From a virus: a DNA stretch of 30,523 nucleotides. This document shows positions 1,491 to 18,959 of this stretch, piece by piece. Position 1 is the stretch's first letter; each line of letters opens with the position of its first letter. A program made the translations under genes and the position numbers. A model generated the notes under the pieces. The model was not told the origin of the DNA and ran no database searches. It worked only from the letters and a program-made list of their open reading frames with translations. The DNA is taken from positions 1 through 30,523 of IMG/VR virus record IMGVR_UViG_3300002519_000025. One strand, written 5' to 3'.

Positions 1491-2160
1491 GATAGATGTA
1501 CCTCCTCTTGATGCTGTCCATGGGGCGGGGGAACAGGTCCCTCTCCAGGAGCAGCATGTGGTCCGTGAGCAGGCGGGCGGTCTCCTCGTAGCGGGACGGC
1601 CCCGACCCGTCGAAGCTGTGCGCTCCGTCCCTGATGCAGAGGTCCACCCTCCGCCTGGTGTTGACCCGTCCGACATGGCAGATGACGCCATGCCGTGCGC
1701 ACATGTCGGACATCGGCTTTATCGAGCGCAGCTTCCACGGAGTGGACCCGCCGATGAAGACGCCGATCCCGTCCTGGGCGTACTGCTCCAGGTCATCAGC
1801 CACCATGCCGTCCTGCGCGACGAAGACGAGCCTGTATCCCTCAAGTCTTTTAATCCATGTGCTCGCCATCCTGTGTGTTTCGATAGCATCTTCGACCTTA
1901 TCTGGTATCACCAGAAAGTCGGCATCATCACCATAACGCTCCACGTCGTCAAGGAATGGCGCGGGCTGGAACGGAGACCCGCGCTTGTGGCATACCCACG
2001 CACCGTTGTCTATCGCATACCCTGCGCACTCCCTCATGCGGCGGTAGGGCCTGCTCGGCGACATCATGTGCCGCCACGGGAACCTGTCCAGGTGCTGCAG
2101 CTGACGCGGGCTTGACGGCTGCGCACAGTACGGGATGATGTGGGTGTACCTGTCAGTCAT
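1483..2160 (-). CDS. dpdA: DpdA-like 7-deazaguanine DNA transglycosylase
   Basis: 225 residues, of the short phage type. DpdA is a tRNA-guanine-transglycosylase relative that swaps guanine in DNA for a 7-deazaguanine base. Visible hallmarks in order: an Asp-Asn-Gly at 51-53 (AIDNGAW), DFLVIPDKV (81-89), LVFVAQDG (111-118), VFIGGSTPWKL (134-144), HVGRVNTRRR (162-171) and HSFDGSG (181-187). Asp51 and Asp184 are the likely catalytic pair by analogy with TGT enzymes. No zinc-binding Cys cluster of bacterial TGT is visible, as expected for DpdA. The start at 2160 (2163 possible) follows GGGAGG and overlaps the upstream gene by 8 nt. Being sandwiched between two PP-loop enzyme genes makes a DNA modification cassette very likely. 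Confidence 0.85.
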   Translation of the reverse strand: MTDRYTHIIPYCAQPSSPRQLQHLDRFPWRHMMSPSRPYRRMRECAGYAIDNGAWVCHKRGSPFQPAPFLDDVERYGDDADFLVIPDKVEDAIETHRMASTWIKRLEGYRLVFVAQDGMVADDLEQYAQDGIGVFIGGSTPWKLRSIKPMSDMCARHGVICHVGRVNTRRRVDLCIRDGAHSFDGSGPSRYEETARLLTDHMLLLERDLFPRPMDSIKRRYIYHE

Positions 2161-3052
2161 CATCGCCTCCCTTGTGCTCGCACATGCCCCACTTGACGCA
2201 GGTCGGTTCTTCAGATGAAAACATCTCGAACTGCTTCCCCCCCCTTGCGGTGGTGCTCCATTCCCTGACATCGTCAATCGTCATGATGGGTACGCCCTTG
2301 ATCGGTGAGTGGAAGAAGGTGCTGTGCAGTTGGGCGTCGCCCTTCCGCTCCCTTTTGAGTTTGGTGCATGTGTTCTCCATGTCCCTGATCAAAGACACCC
2401 GATCCTCTTCCAGTCTTGCTATCTCCTTCTTTCGGCTGTTGATGCACGGCCAGCATCCCACCCTCGTTGAACCGTTCAGGTACAACTGGTTGGGTACAAG
2501 GTTCCATCGGTGGTGAATGTCGATGACCTGCTTCTCAGTCCAGGCTATCAACGGTCGCCACACCCAGCAGTCGAAGGCGTCGCTCCACTCCCACTCCGTC
2601 ATCCGTGAACGCCTGGGGCTTTCCTCCCTCCGTATCCCGACCAGCATCAGGTAGTCATGATCCAGCTCTTCCACATGTTTTGTGACTGGACGTATCTTCA
2701 ACTCCTGCGTGCACCACTTGCCATTGCGTGTCGGGAAGGACTGGTGCAGCAGGATGCGCCTGATCATCGGCGACCGCCAGCCGATGCGCTCCTCATAGTG
2801 CTCGACGTATTTCCTGTGCTCGTCCCTCACCCTGATGTCGGCACTCAGCCTGGTGATCGGCCCCACTGTCTCCTCCAGTTTGTCGAGGTAGGCGTAGGTG
2901 GAGGCGTGCTCCCACCCAGTATCCATGAAGACCCTGTCGTAGTCGTCCCTTGTGTAGCCCATCTCCATAAGGTGCAGGCACATCGCCGTGCTGTCCTTCC
3001 CCCCGCTCACCGATACTATCGGGCGCGCATTGGTCAGTCTCTCGTCAGTCAT
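2153..3052 (-). CDS. PAPS-reductase/DndC-like PP-loop protein
   Basis: 299 residues. The PP-loop SGGKDST is at about 16-22, followed by FMDTGWEH, VGIRREESPRRS, a WRPLIAWTEKQV segment and a CxxC-type site in GCWPCINSRKKEI. These are typical of the PAPS reductase/adenylyl-transferring family that includes phage PAPS-reductase-like proteins and, more distantly, DndC. Biochemical roles in the family range from sulfate activation to sulfur insertion into DNA; this member's substrate is unknown. It precedes dpdA with an 8-nt overlap (GGGAGG Shine-Dalgarno and ATGACTGA), so it should be co-produced with DpdA and QueC. It might alter the 7-deazaguanine base, or be an independent phage metabolic gene as seen in many siphophages. 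Confidence 0.8.
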   Translation of the reverse strand: MTDERLTNARPIVSVSGGKDSTAMCLHLMEMGYTRDDYDRVFMDTGWEHASTYAYLDKLEETVGPITRLSADIRVRDEHRKYVEHYEERIGWRSPMIRRILLHQSFPTRNGKWCTQELKIRPVTKHVEELDHDYLMLVGIRREESPRRSRMTEWEWSDAFDCWVWRPLIAWTEKQVIDIHHRWNLVPNQLYLNGSTRVGCWPCINSRKKEIARLEEDRVSLIRDMENTCTKLKRERKGDAQLHSTFFHSPIKGVPIMTIDDVREWSTTARGGKQFEMFSSEEPTCVKWGMCEHKGGDDD

Positions 3053-3767
3053 TGTTCGGGTCCTCCCTCTTGCCTGTCAGGTGCTCGCCCATCGCTGCGC
3101 CTCCCTCCACCATCAGGCGGAGATGCCTGTGGAATCCACGGTCGGCAGCCCGGCCCGCCCTGACCCGCGCCTCCAGTTCCTCCCAGTCCCACGGGAGCAT
3201 CATCTCCCTGTGCGACAGCTGGGGTGTGTCGGTGCAGGTGTAGTGGTATTCGTGCAGGTCGAGGCGCAGGTCCTCCACCAGCTTCTTCCTCCGCTCCTGC
3301 CAGGTGCGCACCGTGTTGCCGACCCTCTTAATGCTCCCCTTGCACCCGCACATGCACCTCTTGACCGAGACATAGGTGCGGTTCTGCTCGCGGTGGGGCT
3401 CGCTGCCTATCCCCCTGCCCCCATCCTGCGACGGGGCAATCCAGGTGTACAGCGCGGAGGTGAGGACGAGACCCCCCTCCTCCCTGCAGTGGTCGGAGCA
3501 GTACGGGTAGTCTATCACCTGGTGCGTCGAGCTGTATCCCAGGTCCACGGCCGTCTTCCTGACCGCCGCCACCACCGAACCGAGGCTCGGGGGGAAGTCG
3601 TACTCCTCCACGCACACCGCCTGCACCCCCTGGGTGAGGGCCTGGTCGGGGGTGTGTTCAAAGGCTGCCTTCCACATGGGACGAGACCCCTCCCGCCACG
3701 AGGCGGAGCGCATGAAGCTGGCGGCGAACATGCCGAGGGCGCTGTCTATCGTGCTGTCATACGCCAT
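3045..3767 (-). CDS. Putative zinc-binding replication accessory protein
   Basis: 240 residues starting at ATG 3767 (a GTG at 3770 is also in frame). The N-terminal part, with a MWKAAFEHTPDQAL segment and a YDFPPSLGSVVAAVRK segment, resembles the helical layout of phage helicase-loader or replisome proteins, where an F-P-P segment is common; this is a weak resemblance only. The middle has clustered Cys/His (YPYCSDHCREE, then CMCGCKG), consistent with a zinc knuckle. The C-terminal part is Arg/Glu-rich and probably helical. It lies directly downstream of the putative initiator and a small coiled-coil gene, the usual place of a loader. It overlaps the previous stop by one base and the next start by 8 nt. 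Confidence 0.6.
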   Translation of the reverse strand: MAYDSTIDSALGMFAASFMRSASWREGSRPMWKAAFEHTPDQALTQGVQAVCVEEYDFPPSLGSVVAAVRKTAVDLGYSSTHQVIDYPYCSDHCREEGGLVLTSALYTWIAPSQDGGRGIGSEPHREQNRTYVSVKRCMCGCKGSIKRVGNTVRTWQERRKKLVEDLRLDLHEYHYTCTDTPQLSHREMMLPWDWEELEARVRAGRAADRGFHRHLRLMVEGGAAMGEHLTGKREDPNND

Positions 3768-4000
3768 CACTCACCCCCTTCGAGGTGTCGGCGGGCGTCC
3801 TCCAGGTTGCGCTCAATCTCCTGCTGCTCATGGTGGTGGTGCAGGTACATCCGCTCGGCGTCATCCACCACCGCCTGCAGCTGTGCCAGGGTCGCGCCCT
3901 TCTCCAGTGCCAGCAGCATCTCGGGCACACGGCCGAAGAAGACCGCGCTCCGTATCTTCAATGCGACAGCCGCATCTATCTTGTATATCTTGTTGTCCAT
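3767..4000 (-). CDS. Small coiled-coil protein, 77 aa
   Basis: Begins MDNKIYKIDAAVALKIRSAV and continues into a long charged helix with a run of four His followed by EQQEIERNLEDARRHLEGGE, likely a coiled coil. Shine-Dalgarno AAGGAG lies 5-6 nt before the ATG in an ACAACAAGGAG leader. It starts 2 bases after the stop of the putative initiator gene and its own stop shares a base with the next ATG, so the three genes form one translational unit. No function is recognised; partners in replication are plausible from position only. Confidence 0.65.
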   Translation of the reverse strand: MDNKIYKIDAAVALKIRSAVFFGRVPEMLLALEKGATLAQLQAVVDDAERMYLHHHHEQQEIERNLEDARRHLEGGE

Positions 4001-4002
4001 GA

Positions 4003-4836
4003 CTACTCCTTGTTGTCTGGGATGAGGAAGCCGCGCTTGTCGTAGCGGGGTTCACTCTTTGGTTGCTGTTGTTGTTTGTTGCTGGTGGATTGCTCCACGG
4101 TTTTTATTGTATCAGATTTCCATGCCCTTGCCAAGGAAAAATTCTCGGCGTAGACTTTTTTGTTGCAGACGTTGTGCAGGTGCAGGTGTCCCTCGTCCCT
4201 CAGATACCTCGGCTTCGAGCGCGGGCAGTGGTACAGCCAGTCAAGGACGAGCAGCGCGCCGTCAAGGTTGCCTTTCCGCACCACGCTGCTACACACACCC
4301 AGGTCTTTTGCCAGGATGCAGTCAACGGTGTGTCCTGCTCCAGTGTAGTGCTCTATCCACTTGGCTAGCAGACGATAGCAGTCAGCGGAGCGGGTGACGC
4401 TGCTGAACAGCTCAGGACTCACCTCCTCGCATGCGTATTTTATTCCTTCACCACCAATAGTAATAGTAATATATTGGTTAAGGGGCGTCGATGCGTCCCT
4501 GTCCTCGGGAGGTGTGGAGGGGGACTGATTGAAAGGTGATTGAAAATTGTTCGAAGCGTCCTCTACACCCCCCGCAGACCCGGTCCCAGGTGATTGAAAA
4601 TTGTTCGAAGACTGATTGAAATCCTCCAGGTATGCGATGAACTGGCGGGTCTTGTACAATGTCCACCCCCATTTTCGTGACAGTTCCCTCTGGCTTGGGA
4701 GCTGGTTGAGAGCCCTCAGCTGTAGCCAGTCGTATGCCGCCTCCGCCTTGCTGTTCTTCCCCTGTGAGATGGCCAAGCCCTGGGGGACCTTGATATATCC
4801 CTTGCGCCTTTCCTTCTCCTGTGGTATATTAGTCAT
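4003..4836 (-). CDS. Winged-helix replication initiator-like protein with iterons in its gene
   Basis: 277 residues. Residues about 30-70 form a winged-helix DNA-binding region: AYDWLQLRAL, then LPSQRELSRKWGW, then LYKTRQFIAYLE. This arrangement is frequent in phage replication proteins of the lambda O / DnaD-like sort. Residues about 73-120 are a low-complexity linker in which FNQS, NNFQSP and similar units repeat; at DNA level this linker is a set of direct repeats (4526-4621) followed by an AT-rich stretch. The C-terminal half contains Cys/His residues and a Gln-rich tail (KQQQQ). A CAA-repeat leader with AAGGAGG precedes the ATG. As in lambda O, the gene may contain its own origin. It could instead be a transcription regulator. 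Confidence 0.6.
   Translation of the reverse strand: MTNIPQEKERRKGYIKVPQGLAISQGKNSKAEAAYDWLQLRALNQLPSQRELSRKWGWTLYKTRQFIAYLEDFNQSSNNFQSPGTGSAGGVEDASNNFQSPFNQSPSTPPEDRDASTPLNQYITITIGGEGIKYACEEVSPELFSSVTRSADCYRLLAKWIEHYTGAGHTVDCILAKDLGVCSSVVRKGNLDGALLVLDWLYHCPRSKPRYLRDEGHLHLHNVCNKKVYAENFSLARAWKSDTIKTVEQSTSNKQQQQPKSEPRYDKRGFLIPDNKE
4436..4481. other. AT-rich stretch beside the iterons, possible unwinding element
   Basis: A clearly AT-rich block inside otherwise GC-rich coding sequence, with three TAGTAAT/TAATA-type units. It is bounded by the inverted repeat ACCAAT (4453-4458) and ATTGGT (4473-4478). It lies about 45 bp from the repeat cluster on its downstream side in the gene's reading direction, the arrangement seen in lambda ori. 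Confidence 0.4.
4526..4621. repeat. Iteron-like direct repeats inside the initiator gene
   Basis: Four copies of TGATTGAAA at 4526, 4537, 4591 and 4613, all in the same orientation. Two of them lie in a longer perfect 23-bp repeat (4534-4556 and 4588-4610) that ends in ATTGTTCGAAG. The other two share ACTGATTGAAA. Spacings of 11, 54 and 22 bp are close to whole helical turns. The repeats encode the low-complexity linker of the protein, so they may be kept for DNA rather than protein reasons. Confidence 0.65.
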
Positions 4837-4939: not shown

Positions 4940-4963
4940 GGTACTGAACAGCTGTTCAGTACC
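4940..4963. promoter_or_regulatory. Perfect 24-bp palindrome, GAAC-N4-GTTC operator-like
   Basis: Half-site GGTACTGAACAG followed by its exact reverse complement. The core GAACAGCTGTTC fits the LexA/DinR box form used in many Gram-positive and some other bacteria (GAAC-N4-GTTC). It lies about 105 bp upstream of the initiator start codon, between that gene and the SWIM gene, in the only sizeable gap of this part of the leftward cluster. Confidence 0.55.
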
Positions 4964-4975
4964 GAAAATGCGTAC

Positions 4976-4989
4976 TGAACGGCTGTTCA
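4976..4989. promoter_or_regulatory. Second GAAC-N4-GTTC site
   Basis: TGAACGGCTGTTCA, starting 31 bp (about three helical turns) from the equivalent point of the perfect palindrome. The left flank GTAC is conserved, the right flank is not. It overlaps the stop codon of the SWIM gene. Two phased copies suggest a cooperative operator for an SOS-type or phage repressor. Confidence 0.5.
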
Positions 4990-8485: not shown

Positions 8486-8578
8486 GCGTTTTAACGCATA
8501 TGAGATAATATGAGATAATGTGAGTTATGTTTGACGAAGATGCTATATCAAATCACTTGATATGATTTATTTTTATAG
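8486..8578. other. AT-rich block with 10-bp repeats, candidate unwinding element
   Basis: Starts with GCGTT-TT-AACGC (8486-8497), then ATGAGATAAT twice (8500-8509, 8510-8519) and a degenerate third unit GTGAGTTATG. The inverted repeat ATATCAA/TTGATAT (8545-8563) follows, then a T-rich stretch to the first DnaA-like box. This matches the usual order of an unwinding region next to DnaA boxes. Confidence 0.5.
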
Positions 8579-8666
8579 TTATTCACAGGTTGTTCACAGG
8601 TTATCCACAGCTTGTTCACAGGTTACTGACAGGTTACTGACAGCTTATTCACAGGTTATTCACAGG
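8579..8666 (+). repeat. Eight tandem 11-bp DnaA-box-like repeats (candidate origin)
   Basis: Eight head-to-tail units with no gaps. Units 1, 7 and 8 are TTATTCACAGG, unit 3 is TTATCCACAGC (exact DnaA box TTATCCACA), units 2 and 4 are TTGTTCACAGG, units 5 and 6 are TTACTGACAGG/C. The first nine bases fit TTATNCACA in four units. Same orientation and an 11-bp period would place all boxes nearly on one face of the helix. Either a replication origin that recruits host DnaA, or a DnaA titration/regulatory site. Confidence 0.75.
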
Positions 8667-17660: not shown

Positions 17661-18959
17661 ATGAAGCTGTCCGAGATAAGAAGCTACATAGGGAACATAC
17701 TGGACTACCAGCCCGACATCACCACCTACAAGAACCAGCTCGACGCCGTCATCAACGAGCAGTACATGCGTCTCTTCACGGAGAAGCCGTTCACCTTCGC
17801 GCAGAAGGAGGCGGTGATCACCGCCAGGAAGGATGACGAACTCACCGCCATAGACGTCGCGAACGGTGCGGCGACGCTCTCCGACACAGCCGCCGCCAAC
17901 CAGTTCGAGTCCTACATGGAGGGGCAGGTCATCGACCTGGACGGGACCGAGTACACCATAGCATGGGTGGCGACCGCCAACCTGGCGTACCTCACCAACA
18001 ACTACGAGGGCTCCTCCGCCACGCTCGCCACCGTAACCGTCAAGCACCGCTACCTCGACCTCCCGCAGGACTGCGTGGAGATAATGCAGGTGCTCAAGAG
18101 GGCGATGACCCTCACACCCCAGGAACCAGGGCGCATGATCCCGCTCACCAGGTACGAGGACGAGTTCTGGAACCTGCCGCTCAACGAGGTCAACCTCCCC
18201 AACTACTGGGTCCCCTACGACGACTACAGCCTCATACCGCCGAAGGCTCCGACAATAACCGCAGCAACAAGCGGGGCTGGAAGAGGAATAAGAACACTTG
18301 AGTTCGCCGTCTCCTACGTCTTCGCAGGAAGGGAGAGTGCATTATCGCCAATAACCAGTATTGCATTAACGGCAACACAAGTAGCAAACATAACCTTGGC
18401 AGCATTACCTAATACTTCTGGTAGGTATAGAAAGGTCTATGTGCGTTGTCCAGAAGCAGGAATAAACAAGTTTTACAATATACCTGAAAGTGGGACAGGA
18501 ACAAGTATATATGAATATGATCCTACTAAAACTGGTGCTTATCAATATGCTACAGATACTGATTTAACTGATTTTAATGATTCATTTGAGCTGACCTACT
18601 CCAGGTACGACGGCGTGGACGGGAACCTTCAGCGCATCAGGATGTACCCGAGGCAGTCCCAGGACTACTCCATCACCGTGCGCTGCATGTACAGGCCCAT
18701 CGAACTGATCGACGACGCGGACACGCCCGAGTTCCCCTCCGCCAGCCACCAGATCCTCGCCTACATGGCGCTGCGCGACATCTTCGTCAAGCACGACAAC
18801 GACGCCCAGGCGTCGATGTACGACAGGAAGGTCGTGCAGGAGATGCTCAAGATAGAGCAGAGATACCTCAACTCAATCGCCAAGCGGTACATCAAGCGGT
18901 TCATGGCCGGAGGCCGCACAGACCCCGTCCCCATGTACACTCCGCTGTCGACGTCATGA
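17661..18959 (+). CDS. Head-tail adaptor / tail tubular A-like protein with inserted Ig-like domain
   Basis: 432 residues. The N-terminus MKLSEIRSYIGNILDYQPD and a DLPQDCVEIMQVLKRAM segment, with C-terminal SASHQILAYMALRDIFVKHDN and ERYLN-type helices, fit the helical adaptor ring joining portal to short-tail nozzle. Residues about 196-310 differ: APTITAATSG, a FAVSYVFAGRESALSP strand pair and YRKVYVRCPEAG look like an Ig/fibronectin-type beta domain. The second part of that insert (about 18340-18590) is AT-rich against GC-rich flanks. GGAGG precedes the ATG; the stop overlaps the next start (ATGA). Confidence 0.72.
   Translation: MKLSEIRSYIGNILDYQPDITTYKNQLDAVINEQYMRLFTEKPFTFAQKEAVITARKDDELTAIDVANGAATLSDTAAANQFESYMEGQVIDLDGTEYTIAWVATANLAYLTNNYEGSSATLATVTVKHRYLDLPQDCVEIMQVLKRAMTLTPQEPGRMIPLTRYEDEFWNLPLNEVNLPNYWVPYDDYSLIPPKAPTITAATSGAGRGIRTLEFAVSYVFAGRESALSPITSIALTATQVANITLAALPNTSGRYRKVYVRCPEAGINKFYNIPESGTGTSIYEYDPTKTGAYQYATDTDLTDFNDSFELTYSRYDGVDGNLQRIRMYPRQSQDYSITVRCMYRPIELIDDADTPEFPSASHQILAYMALRDIFVKHDNDAQASMYDRKVVQEMLKIEQRYLNSIAKRYIKRFMAGGRTDPVPMYTPLSTS

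Follow-up and report, generated by a model that had tools for sequence, protein, structure and literature searches.

A candidate replication origin of 11-bp-pitched iterons nested within a phage initiator gene

The initiator gene and its surroundings

We analyzed a 30,523-nucleotide stretch of viral DNA (IMG/VR record IMGVR_UViG_3300002519_000025, positions 1 to 30,523), referred to here as the window. Its features relevant to replication are compiled in Table 1. They comprise a putative initiator gene with repeats and an AT-rich tract inside it, two genes downstream of the initiator gene, and a separate array of DnaA-like boxes.

Table 1. Features of the initiator region in the window, and DnaA-box arrays in the window and in related contigs.
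Feature	Position	Strand	Remarks
Helicase loader gene (P-like)	3045..3770	minus	downstream of initiator gene, same strand; phrog_109; synteny in 6 relatives
Small ORF, 77 aa	3767..4000	minus	between initiator and helicase loader genes; without family match
Initiator gene (candidate origin-binding protein)	4836..4003	minus	ORF, 277 aa; relatives with 29-42% identity; structure model
AT-rich tract (candidate DNA unwinding element)	4432..4482	minus	29% GC, GC3 2/17
Iteron triplet B	4526..4556	minus	CTTCGAACA (4548-4556), TTTCAATCA (4537-4545), TTTCAATCA (4526-4534); 11-bp pitch
Iteron triplet A	4591..4621	minus	TTTCAATCA (4613-4621), CTTCGAACA (4602-4610), TTTCAATCA (4591-4599); 11-bp pitch
HTH DNA-binding segment NQLPSQRELSRKWGWTLYKTRQFIAYLED (residues 44-72)	4621..4707	minus	profile-profile match to DnaD-like phage initiators
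DnaA-box array	8579..8666	plus	eight 11-bp units, head-to-tail, six with DnaA-box core TTRTYCACA; candidate second origin or DnaA-dependent site
DnaA-box array, relative L013	7495-7572		11-bp pitch
DnaA-box array, relative L011	4968-5046		11-bp pitch
DnaA-box array, relative L007	1805-1853		11-bp pitch

The structure model of the initiator (mean pLDDT 61) consists of a helix-turn-helix (HTH) domain, a disordered linker and a helical C-terminal half. The HTH helices span residues 49-56 and 60-77, while the linker (residues 78-121, pLDDT about 25-50) coincides with the repeats described below. A first-pass annotation of this DNA had called the product a winged-helix protein. The model supports the HTH, but it places no wing immediately after the recognition helix; the sole modeled hairpin (residues 122-135) comes after the linker and is encoded by the AT-rich tract. 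Iterons follow the wing in the DnaD-like proteins, whereas in the window they start where the recognition helix ends; one may speculate that the linker has been inserted into the wing.

Profile-profile comparison with hhalign related the HTH to that of DnaD-like phage initiators (probability 90, E 1.4e-6), a modest match given its short length of 29 columns. Residues 237-269 additionally gave a marginal match to phrog_186, which is also DnaD-like (E 0.0059). No Pfam family matched the window initiator at E 0.1, a PDB sequence search produced no match and a PDB fold search returned only generic, non-significant HTH matches. The best match among viral structures was an HTH protein of an uncultured marine virus (E 8e-4, with a poor TM-score).

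The assignment of the downstream gene as a helicase loader rests on PHROG and Pfam matches. The window copy taken alone is weakly similar to phrog_109 (E 9e-4), the best E value among the relatives is 5.6e-6, and the loader of one relative matches PF06992 (lambda P; E 0.0014). Pairwise comparisons of the loader with lambda P and SPP1 gp39 gave no significant homology, and its structure model is reliable in the N-terminal 79 residues only.

A perfect 24-bp palindrome, GGTACTGAACAGCTGTTCAGTACC, lies at 4940-4963, in the gap before the start of the initiator gene. An imperfect second copy follows 31 bp on (4971-4989), and the pair resembles a tandem operator. Further along the minus strand, a QueC-like gene (900-1691; PF06508, E 5.7e-20) lies near a PAPS-reductase-like gene (2153-3052; PF01507), with a gene for an uncharacterised phage protein (1483-2277; phrog_15826) beside them. 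The three are possibly a 7-deazaguanine DNA modification cluster. On the plus strand, a 432-aa structural-region gene has a stretch at about 18495-18590 in which at least 17 codons pass without one ending in G or C, in a genome with a GC3 of 0.79; this stretch is a possible recent import.

Two iteron triplets in the linker

The segment encoding the linker, about 220 bp into the coding region, contains six 9-bp units arranged as two triplets with an exact pitch of 11 bp. Four units have the sequence TTTCAATCA and two have the sequence CTTCGAACA. The first-pass annotation had listed four direct repeats, two of them within perfect 23-bp repeats. All are at the places given there: within the window, the plus strand has TGATTGAAA only at 4526, 4537, 4591 and 4613, and the 23-bp repeats are at 4534-4556 and 4588-4610. 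The count of four holds for exact copies, but two degenerate units had been missed (TGTTCGAAG on the plus strand, at 4548 and 4602). They complete the triplets 4526/4537/4548 and 4591/4602/4613 and bring the total to six. The start of triplet B is 65 bp past that of triplet A.

Since 11 is not divisible by 3, adjacent units are read in different frames (2,1,0 in triplet A and 1,0,2 in triplet B). The same DNA word therefore yields different peptides, which indicates that it is the DNA and not the peptide that is kept.

The linker was scored for two triplets of 9-mers at a lag of 11 (maximum 54), and the score was compared with 2,000 synonymous resamplings, which kept the peptide and used the gene's codons, and with 2,000 linkers of permuted codon order. 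The window scored 42 of 54, a value reached in 0 of 2,000 of either null (P<0.0005). The form of the score and its threshold were picked after the window had been seen, which makes the relatives a fairer test; their two-triplet scores have P values of 0 to 0.0005 under both nulls. Throughout the window and the fetched sequence of the relatives, lag-11 triplets scoring at least 21/27 occur only in the two linker blocks and, where it is present, in the DnaA-box array. A second iteron array elsewhere in the window, which would correspond to oriR of SPP1, was sought and not found.

Conservation of the repeats in relatives

Whole-protein searches with the initiator found no match in phage records, IMG/VR or 84,980 bacterial and archaeal genomes. 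Relatives were instead reached via the terminase (64-87% identity), which gave 22 related contigs. The initiator is encoded on six of these, with 29-42% identity, and the helicase loader gene adjoins it in each. The protein is thus known from seven records, four of which belong to one close clade. As L029 and L030 are near-identical and L027-L030 form a single clade, the records amount to about three independent lineages. Each of the related contigs G008, G009, G016 and G017 (about 32-33 kb) ends somewhere between the initiator and the terminase, the distance differing among them, which may reflect assembly or circular permutation.

Both triplets are kept at the 11-bp pitch in all six relatives; the linker array is therefore present in 7/7 initiator records. 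In the relatives the starts of the two blocks lie 75 bp apart, about one turn more than the 65 bp of the window. Across the 36 units of six records, T3, C4, C8 and A9 are invariant, with the consensus WWTCRWNCA. The encoded peptides, on the other hand, differ among the records (SNNFQSPFNQ, KSITNQSSFNQ, SSKSHAKVMQ). The first-pass annotation had proposed examining whether in relatives the DNA repeats persist as the linker peptide drifts, and this is what we find for the pitch and the core bases.

These results bear on two alternative explanations of the repeats. One is that the selected feature is the peptide, i.e. a low-complexity linker whose repeated NNFQSP/FNQS motifs bind a partner or tune flexibility, with the DNA repeats as a by-product. 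SNNFQSP does occur twice, 54 bp or 18 codons apart, and linkers rich in N, Q and S are also found among the relatives. However, the pitch sets neighboring units in different frames, peptide-keeping resampling never attains the window score, and relatives with other peptides (SKSHAKVMQ, SITNQSSFNQ) retain both pitch and core bases. The frame and synonymous-resampling tests largely refute a peptide motif, and we consider it extremely unlikely. The other explanation is chance or a recent duplication of a 54-bp segment. The perfect 23-bp repeats, which are 54 bp apart, do resemble a recent local duplication, but such an event cannot yield 11-bp triplets in diverged relatives with other unit sequences and a 75-bp block spacing. 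Conservation in the relatives refutes both chance and duplication, the frame and resampling tests also speak against chance, and the probability left to this explanation is negligible.

An AT-rich tract built by codon choice

The first-pass annotation had described an AT-rich block with an inverted repeat following the iterons, and both are present in the window. The arms of the inverted repeat, CCAATA and TATTGG, are at 4454-4459 and 4472-4477, within the tract; sequence inspection of the relatives L027-L030 indicated that this repeat is not kept there. Only 2 of the 17 codons of the tract end in G or C compared with 11.7 expected, and a count as low was obtained in 0 of 100,000 resamplings with the genome codon usage. 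The same bias occurs in the relatives, in which the GC3 of the tract is 0.07-0.13 as against gene means of 0.36-0.65. The tract is built by synonymous codon choice. The I-x-I-G core that it encodes is conserved, so the protein sets part of the AT content and codon choice adds more. Other windows of the genome equal or exceed it in AT-richness; it is therefore a local feature of the gene and not the genome minimum.

The tract is also relevant to the idea that the repeats are only an operator, at which the initiator or another HTH protein autoregulates or blocks transcription of the replication genes. Initiators that bind iterons are often autoregulators, and the array sits in a run of same-strand genes. 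On the other hand, it lies well inside the coding region, and a synonymously enriched AT tract after the array would be superfluous for an operator. Furthermore, the palindrome upstream of the gene is more operator-like. Taken together, a function restricted to transcriptional control is very improbable.

The DnaA-box array

The first-pass annotation had suggested two candidate origins about 4 kb apart, the second being an array of DnaA boxes. This array is real. Each of its units consists of a 9-bp box and a 2-bp spacer, it lies about 4.0 kb from the linker array, and it is adjoined by a stretch of very low GC content (8537-8587, 11 GC of 51). The box cluster beside an AT-rich stretch is as expected of a DnaA-type oriC, but conservation among relatives is not found: the array is present in three of the seven initiator records (the window, G010 and G012) and absent from the other four. 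It also occurs on the fragment L007, where no initiator gene was detected. Near the array, the iteron was looked for and not found. Given its presence in 3/7 records and the absence of the iteron, it may just as well be a regulatory site dependent on DnaA or an alternative start site. That it is a DnaA-dependent site is plausible; a two-origin arrangement is not conserved across the group.

One could argue that this array is the main origin and that the linker repeats play a secondary or late part or stall replication, as has been proposed for oriR of SPP1. Eight 11-bp units next to the low-GC stretch would fit such a role. But the DnaA boxes are missing from 4/7 initiator records and the linker array from none, and no iteron connects the two places. 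We therefore regard this arrangement as improbable.

Comparison with known origins

The origin of phage lambda lies inside gene O (PMC7466680). As in the window, repeats in the linker region of the initiator gene are followed by an AT-rich tract, and the gene of the helicase loader, P, is next. The comparison with lambda ori made in the first-pass annotation therefore stands with regard to the order of iterons, AT tract and P-like loader gene, but the layout is not specifically lambda-like. The lambda iterons are 18 bp long and spaced 20-24 bp, in contrast to 9-bp units at an 11-bp pitch, and the initiator is not detectably homologous to lambda O (hhalign probability 0.2, E 0.33; no Pfam match).

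Bacillus phage SPP1 shares more specific traits with the window. Its replisome organizer, gp38, is an HTH initiator with a related DNA-binding segment. Gene 38 has direct repeats at an 11-bp pitch in the linker region (nt 373, score 25/27), and the next gene codes for the helicase loader (gp39). Within gene 38, gp38 is reported to bind the oriL direct repeats, beside an AT-rich unwinding element (PMC6316719), and the 11-bp units at nt 373 fall inside the cloned oriL fragment 35801-36151 (PMC5615212). There are also differences. The SPP1 iteron, AAAAGACACGA, is unlike the units of the window, and SPP1 has one run of units after the wing whereas the window has two triplets directly after the recognition helix. 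The second SPP1 origin, oriR, is similar in organisation to the first and is bound by gp38, whereas the second array in the window is DnaA-box-like. Finally, the loader resembles lambda P more than SPP1 gp39.

Direct repeats in the replisome organizer gene (Rep) of the Lactococcus phages Tuc2009 and TP901-1 are reported as the origin (PMC8965321). The rep gene of Tuc2009, annotated as containing the origin, has CAACCAA units at an 11-bp pitch like the window; orf13 of TP901-1, by contrast, is without this pitch, and the initiators of both phages are otherwise unlike that of the window in sequence. The RepA_N plasmid initiators (pSK41, pTZ2162, PLE RepA) combine a DnaD-like N-terminal DNA-binding domain with iterons (PMC7145576). 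Their iterons are described as semi-palindromes centred on a poly-A tract, a design that the units of the window do not share, and the initiator has no match to the RepA_N family; among the initiator members only an irrelevant Pfam match was obtained (E 0.49). The putative origin would work in the manner of both lambda and SPP1. It is best classed, as a divergent form, with SPP1 gp38/oriL, its closest match in DNA-binding domain and pitch, and not as lambda O-type.

A model of the nested origin

The repeats and their pitch, their conservation as DNA, the tract whose AT content is raised by synonymous choice, the order of the genes and the relationship of the HTH point to the initiator gene as the site of an initiator-dependent replication origin. 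We consider this highly probable. Judging from this anatomy and from SPP1 and lambda, the HTH domain would bind the six 9-bp iterons (WWTCRWNCA) in their two triplets. Because the iterons are one helical turn (11 bp) apart, bound initiator monomers would line up along the same face of the helix and assemble into a nucleoprotein complex. This complex would open the adjacent AT-rich tract, to which the P-like loader encoded just downstream may deliver the host DnaB helicase.

The 11-bp pitch in other phages

A phage collection was probed with a generic wHTH peptide and 14 initiators were taken. Strong 11-bp triplets were present in the linkers of ten, including that of SPP1 gene 38, and absent in four; three of the ten positives (SPP1, 049ML001 and 000TH010) are close relatives. 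The search of IMG/VR used an alignment confined to the N-terminal domain, without the linker. As alignment A3 was too diverse for a scan of the collection, the narrower A4 was used. A lag-11 triplet of at least 21 was found in 29 of 34 distinct DnaD-like linkers (85%), compared with 1% of the control windows taken at those loci. About five of these linkers are query seeds, or nearly identical to them, and had been selected with their pitch already known; leaving them out gives about 24/29. Only lags of 11, 22 and 33 stand out among the 34 linkers, and the peptide-preserving null gave P<=0.05 in 25 of them. The pitch recurs in many phages of this broad type that are unrelated to one another, even though the sequences of the units vary widely (GACACGAAAAA, GACCACACGGA, AAGCACCACCA, AACATCAAAAC). 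The literature that we searched makes no mention of a common 11-bp pitch.

This survey raises the possibility that origins nested in phage wHTH initiator genes generally obey one design rule, an exact 11-bp pitch that takes the units through all three codon frames. Iteron and HTH would drift together while the pitch stays fixed. The marine lineage of the window would then be a divergent case, whose two triplets immediately follow the recognition helix; some of its members would have, in the separate 11-bp DnaA-box array, an alternative start that depends on DnaA. We see the arguments for and against this generalization as evenly balanced. If it is true, many phage origins would be predictable from sequence alone, and initiator/iteron pairs could be compared with regard to how origin specificity evolves under joint constraints on DNA and protein. 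If the pitch marks origins in this class of initiators, they could be located in thousands of uncultivated phages. A guess from a single window thus becomes a testable sequence rule, with SPP1 and its reported binding in gene 38 as an anchor.

Most of the DnaD-like initiators surveyed (L057-L070, L071-L150) have the 11-bp pitch in the linker, and a minority have others: 12 bp in BS-TP2, P2.4 and Davies, and 23 bp in Vibrio 1.189.
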